Positions 1 through 22,315 of a stretch of DNA of 64,000 bases are shown in pieces. Numbering within the stretch: position 1 is the first letter of the stretch; each line of letters starts with the position of its first letter. A model generated the notes under the pieces. It was not told the origin of the DNA. It did not search any database and saw only the letters and a list, made by a program, of their open reading frames with translations. Source of the DNA: Neisseriaceae bacterium ESL0693 (GTDB taxonomy: Bacteria > Pseudomonadota > Gammaproteobacteria > Burkholderiales > Neisseriaceae). The position numbers and the translations under genes are program-made. The stretch is from NCBI GenBank assembly GCA_029433475.1, contig JAQTIE010000007.1:1-64000 (forward strand), written 5' to 3'.

Positions 1-1974
1 GGCGCCAGTGGTAGCGCTGATTACAGCCACAGCAAGATCAACGCCGACTATGCCGCGGTCACCGAACAAAGCGGCCTGTTTGCCGGTGATGGCGGCTATC
101 AGGTTAATGTCAGTGGCCATACCCAGCTCACCGGAGCCCTCATCACTTCGACCGACAAAGCCGAACAGACAGGCAAGAATCAATTCACTACCGGCACCAT
201 CGGCTTTACCGACCTACACAACCACAGCAACTACAAAGGCGAAGGCATCGGCATTGGCCTCAGCGGTGATATCAATGGCGGCGCCAACGGCCAGACCGTG
301 GATAAAAACGGCAACGCCACCAACAGCCTCATGGCCGGCATAGGTTATGGCAGTGATAAAGGCAATGATGCCAGCACCACCCACAGCGGCATCAATACCA
401 GCAACATCAGCATTACCAACCCCGACAAACAACAGCAGGACATTAATCAAGTCCATACTGACGTCAGCACCGACAACTACGCTGAACATGCTGGTTATCT
501 CAGCAACAACTTTGACAAAGACCGAGTACAAAGTGAGCTGGATACCCAGATAGACGTCAGCAAAGAATTCAGCCAGAACACCCAGAAAGCACAGGCTGAA
601 ATCAACCAGAAGAAAGACCAGCTCAAAGACAAGATCAAACACGAAACCGACCCGGCCAAACTGAATGAATACCAGCAGCAACTGGACAACTGGAATACCG
701 CCAGCTGGCTGTTGGGCAGCATCAGCGCTGGTCTGTCAGCACCCACCAATAATGTAGCCGGTATTGCCGCCGCCACCGCCAGCCCCGCGGTTGCCCATGC
801 CATCGGTGACTATTTCCATGACCACGGCAGCGAAGACAGCGCCGCCCACCTCCTGGCACATGCTGCTTTGGGTGCGGCGGTGGCCGCTGCCGGTGGCAAT
901 AATGCCCTGGTGGGCGCTGCCTCAGCCGCCGGCAGTGAAGCCGCCGCCCCAGCGCTAGCCCACTGGCTTTATGGCAAAGACGCTGCCGACCTTACCACCG
1001 AAGAGAAACAGACCATCTCAAGCATTGTCGGATTGGCCAGTGCGGCAATAGGTGCGGCCACCGGTAACAGCGCCGATATCGCCAGCGGTGCCCAGATTGG
1101 CCAAAATGCAGTTGATAACAACTATCTGAGCGAACATCAGCAGAAACAACGCGATAAAGAGCTGATAGAGTGTCAGGGGAAACTGTGTAAAATCAAGGTT
1201 AACGGCAAATGGCTGGCGATCAGCGGCGCCCAGCAGGCCAGCCTGACTGCCGGCATTGTGGCCGGTGTACCGGTAGAAATCGGCCAAAGCATGGAGGACT
1301 TACTCCATATGGTGACCAGTCCGATTGAAACCTACAATGCCATCAAATCACTGATCAACAGCGATGACATTTTTGGCAATGTGTCAGACGCCTTAAAGCA
1401 GGAATACAGTAAGCGCATAGATAACCTGATCAACCAGTATGAGCAAGCCGGCGCCAGTGGCTCATTTCAGGCCGGTGTTGAGATCGGGCGGTTGTTAACC
1501 GATGCAGGTACTCTTGTTGCTGGTGGTATTGGTGTGGGTAAAGGGGTGGCTAAGGTTACTGAAAAGGTGGTGAGTAAGATTAGCAAACAAGGAGTAGGAT
1601 ATAGTGAAGCACTTATAAATAATGGAATAAAATTAGAAATAGATCCAAATAAATTTAATTATTTATATGGAAATGTATCTAGTGGAATACATAATATAGA
1701 TAGATCAACTCAATTAGCACAAACAATGAGAAAATTAGGTATAGAGCAAAATGACTCAGGTACACAAATATTAATAGATCATTTCAATACTGTTGTAAAT
1801 ACAAAAAATAATATTGTAAATACATATAGCAAAGGATCTCAAAATTTTGAAGTTCGAGAATCTTTATTATTTGGTCCATCTGGTAAAGCGGTAAAGTTAG
1901 AAACCTCATTTGAAGTAATGCCTAATGGTTCCAGAAGATTTATTACAACAATACCGAAAGAAGGGAAAAAATAA
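1..1974 (+). CDS. cdiA: CdiA-type contact-dependent inhibition exoprotein, 3' part with toxin tip
   Basis: The frame is open from base 1, so the gene enters from the left and only its last 657 codons are seen. The first part (codons about 1-200) has the Gly/Ser/Thr/Asn-rich texture of the FHA-2 part of two-partner-secreted hemagglutinins. An Ala-rich pre-toxin region follows, and a VDNN motif at 1111-1122 stands where CdiA proteins carry VENN, the junction before the variable C-terminal toxin. Codons about 375-530 are still moderately GC-rich, perhaps an entry domain. From about base 1600 the DNA turns strongly AT-rich and stays so to the stop, so the toxin tip (about 120 residues, ending in a TSFEVMPNGSRRF-like tail) looks like a swapped cassette. 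I do not recognise its catalytic family. It is followed with no gap by a probable immunity gene. Family call secure; toxin activity unknown. Confidence 0.88.
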   Translation, partial: GASGSADYSHSKINADYAAVTEQSGLFAGDGGYQVNVSGHTQLTGALITSTDKAEQTGKNQFTTGTIGFTDLHNHSNYKGEGIGIGLSGDINGGANGQTVDKNGNATNSLMAGIGYGSDKGNDASTTHSGINTSNISITNPDKQQQDINQVHTDVSTDNYAEHAGYLSNNFDKDRVQSELDTQIDVSKEFSQNTQKAQAEINQKKDQLKDKIKHETDPAKLNEYQQQLDNWNTASWLLGSISAGLSAPTNNVAGIAAATASPAVAHAIGDYFHDHGSEDSAAHLLAHAALGAAVAAAGGNNALVGAASAAGSEAAAPALAHWLYGKDAADLTTEEKQTISSIVGLASAAIGAATGNSADIASGAQIGQNAVDNNYLSEHQQKQRDKELIECQGKLCKIKVNGKWLAISGAQQASLTAGIVAGVPVEIGQSMEDLLHMVTSPIETYNAIKSLINSDDIFGNVSDALKQEYSKRIDNLINQYEQAGASGSFQAGVEIGRLLTDAGTLVAGGIGVGKGVAKVTEKVVSKISKQGVGYSEALINNGIKLEIDPNKFNYLYGNVSSGIHNIDRSTQLAQTMRKLGIEQNDSGTQILIDHFNTVVNTKNNIVNTYSKGSQNFEVRESLLFGPSGKAVKLETSFEVMPNGSRRFITTIPKEGKK

Positions 1975-4743: not shown

Positions 4744-4889
4744 AATAAGCTTTTAATAGCAATGATTTAATCATACGTAATATGTAAATTATTGTATAAT
4801 ATGATACTTTTATCATAGCTATCGGTTGTTGTATGGTTAGGGTCAATAAATCTAAAGCTCGCTATTTTATATTTATATATGCAGCAAGC

Positions 4890-5165
4890 TTTACTATCCC
4901 CACCAAAGTACAACAAGCCACCCATGCCGTGCACACCATCGGCGAAAGTAAAAACAACCGCGTTAATGCCATGGCGGCCATGAATAGCGGCTACGACAGC
5001 TACAAAGCCGCCCAAAGCATCGGCAACCTCAATAACCCCAACCCACAGGCCAACAGCGCCAGTATCAAAGTCAGCCTCACCTATGGCCAGCAAAAAAGCA
5101 AACAGGAAAACCACAGCCAAAGCACCGTCGCCAGCGCCAGCCAGATAAACGCCGGCGGTGCCGCA
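4890..5165 (+). pseudogene. stranded CdiA/hemagglutinin fragment
   Basis: Within a frame open from 4833 to 5252, about 85 residues read as CdiA FHA-2 body: NRVNAMAAMNSGYDSYKAAQ, then SIKVSLTYGQQKSKQ and SQSTVASASQINAGG. The coding flanks on either side do not resemble CdiA. The fragment is GC-richer than its surroundings and has no upstream secretion domain. It is best read as a leftover of a second cdiA copy or of a recombination event, inserted between a terminator and hemL. A TATAAT at 4795-4800 lies upstream, but a functional product is unlikely. Confidence 0.7.
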
Positions 5166-5229
5166 ATAACAGATATGAGATGGCTGAAATCATTGATCTC
5201 AGGCTGTTATACAAGTCATATCACTACCA

Positions 5230-6516
5230 TTACCCGCGAGCCATTTCTGTGAATACCTCAGCCGCGATGCCTAAAGTATCGGCAATGTTTTCGGCTGTAT
5301 GGGCGCCTGACATAAAACTGGCTTCAAACGCAGAGGGTGCAAAAGAAACCCCGCGCGCCAGCATGCCATGGAAAAACTGTTTGAAGTGCTGGTTGTCTGT
5401 TTTCTGCATGTCATCAAAACACACAGGTAAAGCGGGAGTAAAGTAAAAACCAAACATGCCACCTATATAACGGCTACTGAATGGAATACCGGCTTCTTCA
5501 GCGATGGCATTGAGGCCTTGGCATAAATCATTACAACGGCGGTTTAATACATCATAAAAACCGCTGCGCTGAATAATTTCCAGGGTTTTCAGACCAGCGG
5601 CCACGGCGATCGGATTACCGGAAAGGGTACCGGCCTGATAGACGCCGCCAAGGGGTGAAATGCATTGCATAATGTCTTTGCGGCCGCCAAAGGCAGCCAT
5701 TGGCATACCACCACCAATGACTTTGCCTATGGTGGTTAAATCCGGCTGAATATTCTGCAACGATTGCGCGCCGCCCAAAGCGACCCGGAATCCGGTCATG
5801 ACTTCATCGTAAATCAGAATACTGCCGTATTGCTCGGTCAGTGAGCGCAGTGCCTGCACGAATTCAGCTGAGGCAGGCACCATGTTCATATTACCGGCGA
5901 CTGGCTCAACAATCACACCGGCAATGTCATTGCCTTGTTCTTTAAACAGTTTGTGTAGTGCTTCCACATCATTGTAAGGCAAAACAATGGTGTGCCGGCT
6001 AAAATCGGCCGGTACACCGGCAGAACTGGGGTTGCCGAAGGTCAGTAAGCCTGAGCCGGCTTTCACCAGCAAACTATCGGAATGACCATGATAGCAGCCT
6101 TCGAATTTAACAATATTATCGCGTCCGGTAAAACCGCGTGCCAGACGAATGGCGCTCATAGTAGCTTCTGTGCCGGAACTGACCAGGCGCAGTTGCTCGA
6201 TACTGGGCATGAGTTTAATGATTTCTTCGGCAATCCGGATTTCGCCTTCTGTAGGTGCGCCGAAAGAAAGGCCATCAAGTGCTGCCTCGCGAACAGCATC
6301 AATAACTTCCGGATGAGCATGGCCAACAATGACAGGCCCCCATGAGCCCACATAGTCAATGTATTGCCGGCCATCTTCGTCCCAAAGATAAGCACCTTTG
6401 GCTTTACGAATGAAGCACGGTGTGCCGCCCACGCTGCCAAATGCACGCACAGGCGAATTCACGCCACCCGGGATCACTTTTTTTGCTTGTTCAAATAATT
6501 GCTGGTTACGATCCAT
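5230..6516 (-). CDS. hemL: glutamate-1-semialdehyde 2,1-aminomutase
   Basis: Converts glutamate-1-semialdehyde to 5-aminolevulinate, the second step of C5-pathway tetrapyrrole synthesis, in the cytoplasm; hemA for the preceding step is at 39400-40662. The 428-residue length is normal. The class-III aminotransferase fold is evident: [10 protein letters not shown] near the start, SSGTEATM at about 113-120, YDEVMTGFR, and the PLP lysine in [13 protein letters not shown] (K265). The ATG follows AGGAACC. The 3' end abuts the CdiA fragment. Nothing odd in the protein. Confidence 0.97.
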
Positions 6517-14174: not shown

Positions 14175-15692
14175 TCAGCTCATGAATAATTGATAGGCAG
14201 CATTATCCGTATATTCCTGATAGGCATAACCAATATTATTCAGAAAATTCTGGAATGCGGCCTTGTCCTGTGGTGGGACATCAATGCCCACCAGTACCCG
14301 GCCAAAATCAGCGCCATGGTTGCGATAATGGAATAAGGTAATGTTCCAGTCGGATTGCATGGACGCTAAAAAGCGTGCCAGTGCGCCCGGGCGTTCGGGA
14401 AATTCAAAGCTGAACAAGCGCTCATGTGCCACTTTTTCTGTCCGGCCACCCACCATATAGCGAATATGAATTTTAGCAATCTCATCCTGAGTCAGGTCTA
14501 ATACGGCTAAATCAGCCTGTCTGAGGGTATGCACCAATTGCTGTAAGTCATCATTACTGCTGCTTTGAATGCCGACAAAAATATGGGCTTTATGCGCATC
14601 ACCATAGCGATAATTAAATTCCGTGATGTTACGGTTGCCGATCAGGTCAATGAAACGGCGGAAACTGCCCGGTTTTTCAGGAATGGTTACTGCCAGAATG
14701 CCTTCATGGCCTTCGGTCAATTCGCTGCGTTCAGAAACATGACGCAGGCGATGAAAATTCATGTTGGCGCCACTGGCCACGGCCACCAGCTGAGCATCAG
14801 TACACTGGTTTCTGGCAATATAAGCCTTTAAGCCAGCCAGTGCCAGCGCGCCGGAAGGTTCGGTAATGCTGCGGGTGTCATCAAAAATATCTTTAATGGC
14901 CGAGCAAATGGCATCAGTATCCACCAGAATAATCTCATCCAGCAAATCCCGACACAGGGTAAAGGTTTCTTCACCCACCAGTTTTACTGCGGTACCATCG
15001 GCAAACAGACCCACGTCTTTCAATTCAACCCGCTGGCCGGCTTGAATGGATTGCTGCATGGCACAGGCATCGGTGGTTTCCACGCCGATGACCTTGATTT
15101 CCGGCCGTACATTCTTAATAAACGCCGCCACACCAGCCGCCAGACCGCCACCGCCAATGGCCACAAAAATCGCATCCAATGGTTTCGGATGCTGACGGGC
15201 AATCTCCAGACCGATGGTACCCTGACCGGCAATCACATCCGGGTCATCAAAGGGAGGAATATAGGTCAGCCCGCTGTCGGCCACCAGTTTCATGGCGTGC
15301 TGATAAGCATCACTATACGATTCCCCCGATAAAACCACTTCCGCACCGCGTTTTTTTACAGCATCAATTTTAATCTGTGGCGTGGTTTTGGGCATAACAA
15401 TGGTGGCGTTACAGCCCAGTTTTTGTGCAGATAAAGCCACGCCTTGAGCGTGATTGCCGGCTGAAGCAGTAATTACACCTTTTTGCAGCTGGGCTGCATT
15501 CAGCTTGGCCATTTTGTTGTAGGCGCCACGAATTTTAAATGAAAAAACCGGCTGCAAATCTTCGCGCTTAATCCAGATATGATTGTGAAGGCGGTCAGAA
15601 AGATTGTGTGCATAATCCAGGGGTGTTTCAATGGCTACATCGTAAACGGCACTGGTCAGAATGCGGGTGAGATAATCGGTATGGGTATTCAT
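14175..15692 (-). CDS. ilvA: biosynthetic threonine dehydratase
   Basis: PLP enzyme converting threonine to 2-oxobutyrate, the entry to isoleucine. The 505-residue size with a double regulatory region fits the biosynthetic, isoleucine-inhibited form. The PLP lysine lies in FSFKIRGAYNK (K53), with TASAGNHAQGVA and GGGGLAAGVA as cofactor loops. Two ACT-like segments begin near VTIPEKPGSFRRF and FEFPERPGALARF. ilvC, ilvN and ilvB are at the far end of the window. It is divergent from the PBP5-like gene. Confidence 0.96.
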   Translation of the reverse strand: MNTHTDYLTRILTSAVYDVAIETPLDYAHNLSDRLHNHIWIKREDLQPVFSFKIRGAYNKMAKLNAAQLQKGVITASAGNHAQGVALSAQKLGCNATIVMPKTTPQIKIDAVKKRGAEVVLSGESYSDAYQHAMKLVADSGLTYIPPFDDPDVIAGQGTIGLEIARQHPKPLDAIFVAIGGGGLAAGVAAFIKNVRPEIKVIGVETTDACAMQQSIQAGQRVELKDVGLFADGTAVKLVGEETFTLCRDLLDEIILVDTDAICSAIKDIFDDTRSITEPSGALALAGLKAYIARNQCTDAQLVAVASGANMNFHRLRHVSERSELTEGHEGILAVTIPEKPGSFRRFIDLIGNRNITEFNYRYGDAHKAHIFVGIQSSSNDDLQQLVHTLRQADLAVLDLTQDEIAKIHIRYMVGGRTEKVAHERLFSFEFPERPGALARFLASMQSDWNITLFHYRNHGADFGRVLVGIDVPPQDKAAFQNFLNNIGYAYQEYTDNAAYQLFMS

Positions 15693-15865: not shown

Positions 15866-16969
15866 ATGAATAAAATAATACTGATACTGATTTGTTGTCT
15901 GGGTTGGTTGGCCGGTTTGCCTGTGGCAAAGGCGAGCGCTTTGCCGCCCATCAATGCGGCGGCATATATCGTCAGCGATGAACAAAGTGGCCGTATCCTG
16001 GCCAGACATGAAGCGTCGGCGCGCATTGAACCAGCGGCCTTAACGCAATTGATGACTGCTTATCTGGTTTTTCAAGCGCTTGAGCGGCAGCAATTAAGTT
16101 TAAAACAACCCTTGGTGGTGTCTGAGGCAGGCTGGCAGGTAACGGGCAGCCGTCTGTTCATGCAGCCCGGGCAGCCTGTGGCCACACAGACCGTGATTCA
16201 AGGAATGCTGACCATAGCCGCCAATGATGCAGCCCTGACATTGGCTCAGGCAGTAGCCGGCAATGAGGCGGCGTTTGTGCGTCAGATGAATCATGCTGCC
16301 AGCAAAATGGGTTTGAAAAACAGCCATTTTGTCAATTGTACGGGTCTGCCGGCTGTCGGGCAATACAGCAGTGCCGAGGATATCTTAACGCTGGCGCGGG
16401 CGTTGTGGCAGGATTTTCCGCAGTATCGCTCATGGTTTGGTCAGAAAAAACTGACGCATCACGGCCTGACACAGTTAAATCATAATTTATTGCTGTTTCG
16501 TGATGCATCAATAGAGGGTCTGGCTACCGGTTCAAGCATCAATGGCGGTTATCATCTGGCGGCACTCAGTCAGAAGAATAAACGGCAGCTGATGGTGGTG
16601 GTGATGGGAGCAGACAGTAGCGTTGCCCGGGCGATTGAGGCGGGTAAATTGCTGGAATGGGCGCAGAATGAATTTAATACGGTACCCATTACCGCAGTGA
16701 ATCACCCCATCGCGCATTTATCGGTTTATCATGGCCGGCAGGCTGAAATAGCGGTGGGATTGCAAGAGAAGGCTTATATCACGTTACCGAATCATCTTCA
16801 CACTACGCTGACACTGCAATTGGAGGCAACACAACCGGTATTGGCGCCAATACGCAAAGGGCAGGTGCTGGGTAAGCTGATCTGGCGGCAACACGATAAG
16901 GTGGTGGCACAAAAAAATGTGGTGGCACTACAAAGCGTGTCCGAAGCAGCTTGGTGGCAGCGCTGGTGA
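15866..16969 (+). CDS. PBP5-like (peptidase S11) protein lacking catalytic residues
   Basis: A 367-residue exported protein with a signal peptide (cut near AKASA) and the full S11 D-Ala-D-Ala carboxypeptidase layout, including a C-terminal PBP5-type domain (about 265-360) with a terminal WWQRW that could be membrane-facing. All three active-site motifs are altered. The usual SLTK reads ALTQ (A58, Q61), the usual SGN reads AAN (A118, N120), and the usual KTG reads ATG (A220). Nucleophile and both general-base lysines are gone, so DD-carboxypeptidase activity is not expected. The frame is intact, with surrounding family residues kept (AYIVSDEQSGRIL, GMLTIAANDA), suggesting selection for a non-catalytic role such as peptidoglycan binding. 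Homology is secure; the role is not. Confidence 0.85.
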   Translation: MNKIILILICCLGWLAGLPVAKASALPPINAAAYIVSDEQSGRILARHEASARIEPAALTQLMTAYLVFQALERQQLSLKQPLVVSEAGWQVTGSRLFMQPGQPVATQTVIQGMLTIAANDAALTLAQAVAGNEAAFVRQMNHAASKMGLKNSHFVNCTGLPAVGQYSSAEDILTLARALWQDFPQYRSWFGQKKLTHHGLTQLNHNLLLFRDASIEGLATGSSINGGYHLAALSQKNKRQLMVVVMGADSSVARAIEAGKLLEWAQNEFNTVPITAVNHPIAHLSVYHGRQAEIAVGLQEKAYITLPNHLHTTLTLQLEATQPVLAPIRKGQVLGKLIWRQHDKVVAQKNVVALQSVSEAAWWQRW

Positions 16970-17067
16970 TGGCGCTAAAGCAGGCGACTGATCGATCACC
17001 ATGATGAAAAGTGAACGATGATTTATAATGAATGTACAGTATTGATGGGGTTAATGAAAAGAGAACA

Positions 17068-18012
17068 ATGGGTACTAAACTGAATCTGAGTCAATGCACG
17101 GCGGCCTTTCTGAAAGATCATGCGGAAGTGAAATACACGGCCAGAGAAATTGCACAATGGATTTTTGAACACTATCCTGAAGCCTGTGCCGCTAAAAAAG
17201 AGGCCAGTAAAGTGTTGCACACGGATGCCGATTTAATCCAGCAGCTGGTGGCCGAAATCAGTGGTCAACGGCCGCATATGCAGCGGCGTCATCCCAACAT
17301 CAAAGTCACTGAGGGAAAACCAAGGCGGTATTATTATTCGGATAAATCTGATGAAACAGAGATTGCCGAAGCTGAAATGCCTGTCACAACAGACCCTGTG
17401 TCCGGGCTGACCAAATGGCATGAGGCTGATTTATACCCGTTATTGTCACAATATCTGGCACAGGAACTGGCGCTTTATTCCAGGCGGATTGATGAGAAAA
17501 CCTCTTCCAATCGTCAGGGAAGCCGGGGGAACCATTGGTTGCATCCGGATATTGTGGCGCTGGAAAATCTGAGCGCGGATTGGGATCGGGAAGTGAGTGA
17601 CTGTGTACAGGTATATTCTATTCAGAAAACCAAACTATGGTCATTTGAAGTAAAGCTGAAAATCAATACCGCCAATGTGCGCGAATGTTTTTTTCAGGCA
17701 GTTTCCAATTCTTCCTGGGCCAATCTGGGTTATCTGGTGGCATCTGAATTTAATGGCCGCAATATTATGAAAGAATTGCGAATGCTGGCTACGGCGCACG
17801 GCATCGGAATTATGCAGCTGGACATGAATAATCCGGCTGAAAGCCAGATTCTGCTTCCGGCGCGTGAGCGCGATGAGATCGACTGGGATATGGTTAACCG
17901 GCTGGCAACGGAAAATAAAGATTTTATGGCCTATGTGGTTTCTATCCGTAAGTTTTATCAGACTGGGGGTGTTAACCGGCATGAATGGGATGGAGTACCT
18001 TACACGCAATAA
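17068..18012 (+). CDS. COG2958-like protein: HARE-HTH plus nuclease-like domain
   Basis: A 314-residue protein, start set at the ATG at 17068 preceded by AAGAGA. Residues 3-50 resemble a HARE-HTH domain (FLKDHAEVKYTAREIAQWIF). The second half recalls PD-(D/E)xK enzymes: HPDIVAL at about 159-165 and SFEVKLKI with E194 and K196, followed by a conserved WANLGYLVASEF helix. Such proteins (COG2958, HrgA-like) occur beside restriction systems in some bacteria; here there is no methylase neighbour. DNA binding and cleavage are inferred. A bidirectional terminator follows. Confidence 0.7.
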   Translation: MGTKLNLSQCTAAFLKDHAEVKYTAREIAQWIFEHYPEACAAKKEASKVLHTDADLIQQLVAEISGQRPHMQRRHPNIKVTEGKPRRYYYSDKSDETEIAEAEMPVTTDPVSGLTKWHEADLYPLLSQYLAQELALYSRRIDEKTSSNRQGSRGNHWLHPDIVALENLSADWDREVSDCVQVYSIQKTKLWSFEVKLKINTANVRECFFQAVSNSSWANLGYLVASEFNGRNIMKELRMLATAHGIGIMQLDMNNPAESQILLPARERDEIDWDMVNRLATENKDFMAYVVSIRKFYQTGGVNRHEWDGVPYTQ

Positions 18013-21527: not shown

Positions 21528-21956
21528 TTAGAACGGGGTACAGTTATTTTGATCATTGCGCTTACAGGAGCGCATCCCCTCAATGCTGTCATAAATAATT
21601 TCCCGGGTATTGATTGTATTGCTTGATTTGGGTGTGGCTCTTAAGGTGTAGCCGAATCTTTTGAAGGGTTTGGTATTGCGGCGGTAGTTGTAATCGTAAA
21701 ATTCATTTTCACTGATAAAGTTAAAACCCTCCGGCTGACCCGGCTTACTGCTTTGCTCATCAGGATACCTTTTATTAATACTGTAATAGCGATCCAGTGC
21801 CTGGGCATTTTTAACCAGATCAGCACGGACATTCTGTTCCCGTGTCTGCCGGACAAAACTGCGGTAGCCCGGATAGGCGATTGCTGCAATGATGGCCATG
21901 ATGGTGACGGTGATCATGAGTTCTATTAAAGTAAATCCTTGCTGATGGCGTTGCAT
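21528..21956 (-). CDS. type IV pilin-like protein
   Basis: A 142-residue prepilin. The ATG at 21956 is chosen since it follows AGAGAAA and gives the short leader MQRHQQG before FTLIELM, the type III prepilin cleavage motif with Glu5. The hydrophobic helix MITVTIMAIIAAIAYPGY follows, then QALDRYYSINKRYP as in PilE-type and minor pilins. A C-terminal cysteine pair (SCKRNDQNNC) may form the D-loop disulphide. No other pilus genes are adjacent. Probably a minor pilin or ComP-like pseudopilin; which cannot be told from sequence alone. Confidence 0.85.
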   Translation of the reverse strand: MQRHQQGFTLIELMITVTIMAIIAAIAYPGYRSFVRQTREQNVRADLVKNAQALDRYYSINKRYPDEQSSKPGQPEGFNFISENEFYDYNYRRNTKPFKRFGYTLRATPKSSNTINTREIIYDSIEGMRSCKRNDQNNCTPF

Positions 21957-21973
21957 AGATTTCTCTTTATAAG

Positions 21974-22315
21974 CTATTGAATAATATCGAGCTGAGTATA
22001 TATGGGTTGTACCAGTACGAAAGGGGCAACCACAACAGCCCACATGGATTGGTTCTGCTGGTAAAACAGGCGAGCCTGTTCATCGCTGACCCGACCCAAT
22101 TGTCCTTGCTGTATCAGGGGTAAGAGCGATGATGTTTCATCTTTGGCCATAAGATGCGCAATATGGATCAAATCCAGGCCGGGTGCCACATAAATACAGT
22201 GACCGCGGGCAAAATAAGGCTGTAATTCAGTCCAGCAAATACGCGCGGTCTCAAGATTCAGTTTATCTTCGAGTGTTACACATGCTTCAGGTGCTGAAGC
22301 CGGATCATTTTTCAT
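21974..22315 (-). CDS. DUF2288 family protein
   Basis: A 113-residue cytosolic protein with the DUF2288 pattern: ETARICWTELQPYFARG at about 23-39, then DLIHIAHLMAKD and a VVAPFVLVQP tail. Family function is unknown. It ends 17 bases before the pilin-like gene, so the two are probably cotranscribed. Confidence 0.82.
   Translation of the reverse strand: MKNDPASAPEACVTLEDKLNLETARICWTELQPYFARGHCIYVAPGLDLIHIAHLMAKDETSSLLPLIQQGQLGRVSDEQARLFYQQNQSMWAVVVAPFVLVQPIYTQLDIIQ

Follow-up and report, generated by a model that had tools for sequence, protein, structure and literature searches.

The window analyzed here, a stretch of 64,000 nucleotides from a Neisseriaceae bacterium, carries an orthologue of the Neisseriaceae gene dacC whose product has lost the catalytic motifs of its family. 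We consider this protein to be, most likely, a dead and maintained DacC that serves as a noncatalytic, peptidoglycan-binding adaptor. The features of the gene are collected in Table 1. Throughout, labels beginning with G, L, and g denote genomes, loci, and genera, respectively.

Table 1. Features of the window dacC gene and its divergent neighbor.
Feature	Position	Strand	Basis
dacC orthologue, PBP5-type (S11) protein of 367 aa with predicted dead active site	15866..16969	+	Open ORF, domains, alignment, ilvA-dacC order
Predicted signal peptide, residues 1-24	15866..15937	+	Hydrophobic N terminus, low model confidence (pLDDT 54, residues 1-20)
Peptidase_S11 domain, residues 24-250	15935..16615	+	Pfam
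SxxK site, A58-L-T-Q61	16037..16048	+	Ala58 in the 13 readable genus genes; within the genus, Gln61 in the window species only
SxN site, A118-A119-N120	16217..16225	+	Asn retained; within the genus, Ser loss in the window species only
KTG site, A220-T-G	16523..16531	+	AVG in the 12 other readable genus genes
Arg255	16628..16630	+	Retained in 69/71 Neisseriaceae genes
PBP5_C domain, residues 270-359	16673..16942	+	Pfam
Shortened C terminus (residues 356-367 plus stop codon) in which the amphipathic helix of congeners is missing	16931..16969	+	
ilvA, divergent neighbor; orthology marker and rate control	14175..15692	-	

Membership in the PBP5 family is clear from the domain scores: Pfam gave 183.3 bits for Peptidase_S11 (gathering score, 27.6) and 50.5 bits for PBP5_C (gathering score, 21.2). 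By sequence, the best solved relative is PBP5 of P. aeruginosa (4k91; E value, 1.7e-65). An AlphaFold model built from a 50-sequence alignment reached a mean pLDDT of 92.6, and its three best Foldseek matches were 4k91_B, 6ntz, and 5j8x (PBP5 of P. aeruginosa and of E. coli), at query TM scores of 0.84 to 0.88. The protein is accordingly modeled with the two-domain fold of PBP5, a fold that the comparison also gives to E. coli PBP5 (DacA) and PBP6 (DacC), with query TM scores of 0.81 to 0.89 to the listed chains. Both E. coli proteins are active DD-carboxypeptidases; their motifs are intact, and an amphipathic anchor forms the C terminus. Such a C-terminal amphipathic helix is typical of most family members and is kept by the congeners of the window species, but it is missing from the window protein, which ends in SEAAWWQRW, 13 residues short of L004 and 10 to 16 residues short of the congeners' ends. 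A group of six members (ALTQ, SAN or CAN, and KAG; G022 among them, judged by eye) likewise has a shortened and altered C terminus. A scan for promoters and terminators around dacC gave nothing above shuffled controls. The preliminary description had spoken of an otherwise intact frame with the S11 fold pattern and the C-terminal domain, and the open ORF and the Pfam matches bear this out, except for the missing terminal helix.

Alignment to 4k91 pairs AALTQLM with ASLTKLM, AAND with SGND, and LATG with LKTG, which confirms the earlier claim that ALTQ, AAN, and ATG replace SxxK, SxN, and KTG. The changes are S58A, K61Q, S118A, and K220A, while the Asn of SxN (N120) and the Thr and Gly of KTG are retained; E. 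coli PBP5, unlike the window protein, has its motifs intact in the alignment. A second set of motifs in an alternative register, which the preliminary description had named as a finding that would speak against it, was looked for over the full length of the protein and ruled out by a pattern scan. The scan found neither SxxK nor [KHR][ST]G, and the sole [SY]xN, at residue 224, lies downstream of the KTG site, so that no other register rescues the motifs. Because the nucleophile, the general base, the SxN serine, and the KTG lysine are all absent, the protein should be unable to act as a serine DD-carboxypeptidase.

To place the gene among its relatives, a protein search was made of 83 Neisseriaceae genomes (E value of ≤1e-30), which gave a match in 74. 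All 74 were read and comprise 71 intact genes, the gene of G022, and two genes split by frameshifts and read in pieces (L138 in G012 and L158 in G101; in G012, the neighboring ilvA is split as well). A match at E 1e-30 was missing from G021 and from all seven genomes of genus g5, yet S13 was found in 8/8 of these genomes. The motifs read SLTK/SGN/KTG in 34 of the 71 intact genes and otherwise in the remaining 37. The nucleophile Ser is retained in 42/71 and is Ala in 29/71, Ala being the sole replacement in every gene without the serine; a single-base change in a TCN codon has six nonsynonymous outcomes, of which Ala is one. Three incomplete genomes (G092, G091, and G089, at loci L147, L148, and L156) keep the Ser and Lys of SxxK and carry MTA, MAS, or MSA in place of KTG; no S13 was found in them. 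The Asn of SxN is present in 71/71 intact genes, and the equivalent of PBP5 Arg248 is present in 69/71. In the window protein this residue is Arg255, which occupies the position of E. coli PBP5 Arg248, a residue with a carboxylate-binding role. Outside Neisseriaceae, the Ser and Lys of SxxK and the KTG motif were intact in 75 of the 75 loci examined, one of which reads SAN, in a set biased by search patterns that included the SxxK site (72 loci among the best 80 of 577 candidates, with titles lacking Neisseriaceae, Neisseria, Eikenella, or Snodgrassella, plus L030 to L032). A contig search with the single window protein found no relative; a search with an alignment did.

Within the genus of the window species, which is of the Snodgrassella type, all 12 intact ORFs and the frameshifted gene of G012 have Ala at the nucleophile Ser and at the KTG Lys. 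Eleven of these genes read ALTK/SAN/AVG, the window gene reads ALTQ/AAN/ATG, and that of G012 reads ALVK/SGN/AVG. K61Q and S118A are confined within the genus to the window species, whose DacC shares 52 to 57% identity with those of the 11 congeners that have an intact ORF. Thus, of the four losses whose conservation in orthologues the preliminary description had raised, the equivalents of Ala58 and Ala220 are genus-wide and the other two are not. The dacC genes of G003 and G011 are identical to those of Snodgrassella communis LMG 28360 and S. gandavensis LMG 30236, respectively, and the 14th genome of the genus (G007, 60% complete) had no dacC match at E 1e-30. Beyond the genus, G024 (g12) reads ALVK/SGN/AVG and G019 (g7) reads ALTQ/SGN/KAG.

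Gene order identifies the window gene as an orthologue of Neisseriaceae dacC, since the same divergent ilvA-dacC arrangement recurs. Among 14 neighborhoods examined, it was shared by the window, eight congeners whose dacC is intact, G012, G014, G020, and G030. The gap between the two genes is 167 to 204 bases in five of those eight congeners and 167 to 419 bases in eight loci overall, and it measures 0.8 to 2.6 kb in G012, G001, G005, and G004 (0.9 to 2.6 kb in the latter three). No conserved dacC neighbor other than ilvA was seen in the 14 neighborhoods, and the short stretches around dacC of G024 and G019 contained no ilvA. On its other side, the window gene adjoins an ORF of 326 aa (17032-18012, plus strand) that has no Pfam match over the cutoff and is absent from the 14 neighborhoods compared. 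Close to the window edge, an ORF at 298-1974 (plus strand) carries a PT-VENN pre-toxin domain and is presumably the end part of a protein of the contact-dependent inhibition type.

The loss of the serine does not appear to be a single event. On a quick tree of 78 rows, from which the motif columns were excluded, the Ser/Ala label requires at least six changes, five of them forced by starred branches. The hypothesis that one ancient loss accounts for all 29 genes with Ala was rejected (AU test, P = 2.2e-32), the group having been named after the tree was seen. The tree indicates that the serine was lost on several separate Neisseriaceae branches, and some of the Ser/Ala changes could be reversals. 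The window genus clusters with G024 and G019, with a weak support of 58, and one shared loss for the window genus and the genera of G024 and G019 is possible.

We asked how the dead gene evolves by pairwise Nei-Gojobori dN/dS, counting only pairs with a dS of <1.5. Values were 0.076 to 0.141 in the 26 of 66 genus pairs that qualified, none of which includes the window species, and 0.027 to 0.178 in an intact-enzyme control of 12 qualifying pairs among 17 selected (G066-G082 is excluded from the intact-enzyme counts; G082 reads KAG). In all 11 window pairs, synonymous distances were saturated, with a dS of ≥2.3 or not computable. Relative to ilvA, the dN of dacC was 1.55 to 3.19 in 36 genus pairs versus 1.32 to 1.65 in three intact pairs; the ratios of the eight window pairs, 2.81 to 3.16, lie inside the range of 1.55 to 3.19 of the other 28. 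Among congeners, in pairs formed without the window species, dead dacC is therefore under purifying selection at a somewhat raised rate, and the low dN/dS argues that the genus keeps the dead form. The earlier remark that this is not simple decay stands for these congeners, and a simple pseudogene is unsupported given the selection measured in pairs to which the window species itself does not belong. Other motif-lost pairs gave 0.036 to 0.040 (three pairs with G083), 0.032 (two pairs among G065, G099, and G084), 0.166 (G068-G061), and 0.229 to 0.284 (four pairs among G081, G078, G098, G073, and G064); constraint looks weaker in one such Neisseriaceae group.

We also compared 10 dead sequences, comprising nine congeners of the window species and G024, with intact sets of equal overall identity. 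At the noncatalytic pocket positions of PBP5, conservation was 0.893 in the dead sequences versus 0.944 expected from intact ones (z = -7.3). Conservation slightly exceeded expectation in the remainder of the N domain (z = 2.9) and did not depart from it in the C-terminal domain (z = -1.1). K220A, T221V, and H223Y are present in 10/10 dead sequences; the window protein has A, T, and S at these positions. The altered pocket is thus itself fixed in these 10 sequences from nine congeners and G024, and its lower conservation speaks against unchanged substrate binding in dead DacC. Stem-peptide binding would be possible in principle, because the SxN Asn and the Arg248 equivalent are retained.

These data also bear on the possibility that the gene is on its way out, the genus having fixed an inactive enzyme once the activity could be dispensed with, and the window species having decayed further, with the frame still open for lack of time. 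Several observations fit: few branches of the tree are as long as that of the window (0.94), and its residue makeup is odd; within the genus, the window species alone has K61Q and S118A, and it has lost the C-terminal helix; pocket conservation falls below that of intact enzymes, the G012 gene is frameshifted, and the g5 genomes gave 0/7 dacC matches at E 1e-30. The G012 frameshift may, however, be a sequence error, because ilvA is split there too. Furthermore, a frame of 367 codons is open in the window at the identity to congeners given above, congener dN/dS is low, the C-terminal domain is as conserved as expected, the serine has always become Ala, and the window dacC/ilvA ratios do not leave the range of the other genus pairs. 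We regard this account as a real but distinctly less probable one. A noncatalytic PBP5 homologue, as the preliminary description had proposed, remains the better reading: the kind of protein is maintained, with Ala genus-wide at the Ser and the KTG Lys and low dN/dS among congeners, although two of the four losses are unshared.

A DacC without motifs is already known in N. gonorrhoeae. The review PMC6365954, citing Obergfell et al. 2018, describes many Neisseria DacC proteins with mutated motifs and a gonococcal DacC lacking all three. By the same review, loss of dacC alone in the gonococcus changes the sacculus little and leaves piliation as it was, while most piliation disappears when dacB and dacC are both mutated; DacC is proposed to act in complex with PBP3/DacB or as a pilus scaffold, and it is apparently functional in rods, its inactive form being linked to coccoid shape. 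The motif loss is repeated in PMC7012608 and PMC9337635. In PMC10269775, no gonococcal DacC band was detected by Bocillin labeling, and DacC is still termed a protein with carboxypeptidase activity; PMC9140248 reports that N. musculi requires dacC, among other genes, for colonization. A literature search for Snodgrassella with carboxypeptidase, peptidoglycan, or penicillin-binding returned nothing on DacC by titles and the starts of abstracts. By its published description, DacC of N. gonorrhoeae (NGO_0443; PBP6/PBP5 homologue) resembles the window protein in being a PBP5-type Neisseriaceae protein with a signal peptide and three lost motifs. It differs in belonging to another genus, one in which the gonococcus lacks MreB (PMC6365954), whereas the window genus has MreB and the window genome lacks S13/DacB. 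This comparison uses the published description, which G073 (ALTQ/CAN/KAG, no MreB) fits.

MreB was found in 14/14 genus genomes, which does not agree with a tie to coccoid shape or elongasome loss. S13 was found in only 4/14 (G001, G004, G007, and G012), with no match in the other 10; these include the window genome, an assembly of 2.23 Mb in 25 contigs that is 99.99% complete. The window genome has one other S11 protein, L001, of the PbpG/PBP7 type; 25% identical to the window DacC, it keeps intact SISK, SEN, and KTG motifs, and no other housekeeping low-mass PBP whose motifs are intact was found there. VanY and PF00144 (class C beta-lactamase-type PBP) gave no match in this genome, one YkuD protein was found, and the single M15_4 match was rejected as a housekeeping carboxypeptidase, belonging as it does with phage endolysin families. 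The short ORFs adjoining this M15-type ORF (L181 in G000, 4848-5279, minus strand) resemble a phage lysis cassette, which suggests a prophage. The preliminary description had also envisaged that the protein modulates a true carboxypeptidase; with no S13 found and the PbpG-type L001 as the only further S11 protein, there are few carboxypeptidases for it to modulate.

The proposal made for Neisseria, in which DacC is a scaffold directing DacB (S13, the gonococcal PBP3) to type IV pilus sites, draws on the double-mutant phenotype reported in PMC6365954 and would agree with genus g10, where S13 is present in 15/15 Ala-bearing genomes of the table, as it is in 18/29 that retain Ser. For the window species it is very improbable, since S13 is missing from 10/14 genus genomes, that of the window among them, and was not found in G019 (g7). 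Across the family, independent-pairs tests linked motif loss neither to S13 nor to MreB absence, at five pairs each, too few for significance. On the evidence of the assembly, the partner of DacC in the window species is not DacB; it could be PbpG. In favor of the adaptor reading taken up below, PilM was found in the window genome and a ComP-like minor pilin, a DNA uptake receptor, in the window (21528-22043, minus strand). The Neisseria DNA uptake core, GCCGTCTGAA, occurs once within the 64-kb window, and the window lineage may use a different uptake sequence with its ComP-like pilin.

The scarcity of carboxypeptidases also invites the reading that DacC binds pentapeptides and so protects their D-Ala-D-Ala termini against trimming, the wall having almost no DD-carboxypeptidase. 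The enzyme inventory of the window genome would suit such a function, with no S13, VanY, or PF00144 match, one intact S11 protein of the PbpG type, and an M15_4 match of the phage endolysin type, as would the retained SxN Asn and Arg255. However, the KTG lysine has changed, as have pocket residues close to it, and PbpG-type enzymes can have carboxypeptidase activity; we judge shielding unlikely, if less so than the DacB scaffold.

Returning to the adaptor, we suggest by analogy that DacC, probably exported, binds peptidoglycan stem peptides in its reshaped pocket by means of the retained SxN Asn and Arg248 equivalent; alternatively, partners may dock on its beta-rich C-terminal domain. It would then position remodeling enzymes (PbpG, for example) at the points where the wall is crossed by envelope machines such as type IV pili. 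Positioning at pilus sites is suggested by analogy with the gonococcal dacB dacC phenotype reported in PMC6365954. More speculatively, and with the doubt proper to so broad a claim, most Snodgrassella-type bacteria might lack a dedicated DD-carboxypeptidase, with PBP5 inactive, S13 gone, and PbpG alone left, and use dead PBP5 as a conserved, pentapeptide-reading adaptor that places wall remodeling without DacB. This might be the older, general role of DacC in Neisseriaceae, hence the repeated loss of its active site.

The literature cited treats the inactive DacC of Neisseria as a consequence of the shift to a coccoid form and as a potential helper of DacB. The window genus fits neither tie, because MreB is present in 14/14 genomes and S13/DacB was not found in 10/14. 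What is new here is the fixation of a dead DacC in a genus that has MreB and in most genomes lacks DacB, how widely the loss recurs across the family, and the evidence of selection for keeping the dead form. Fixation of the loss in this genus of bee symbionts separates a noncatalytic role of DacC from both ties, and bee-gut bacteria offer a system in which the function of a dead penicillin-binding protein can be tested.
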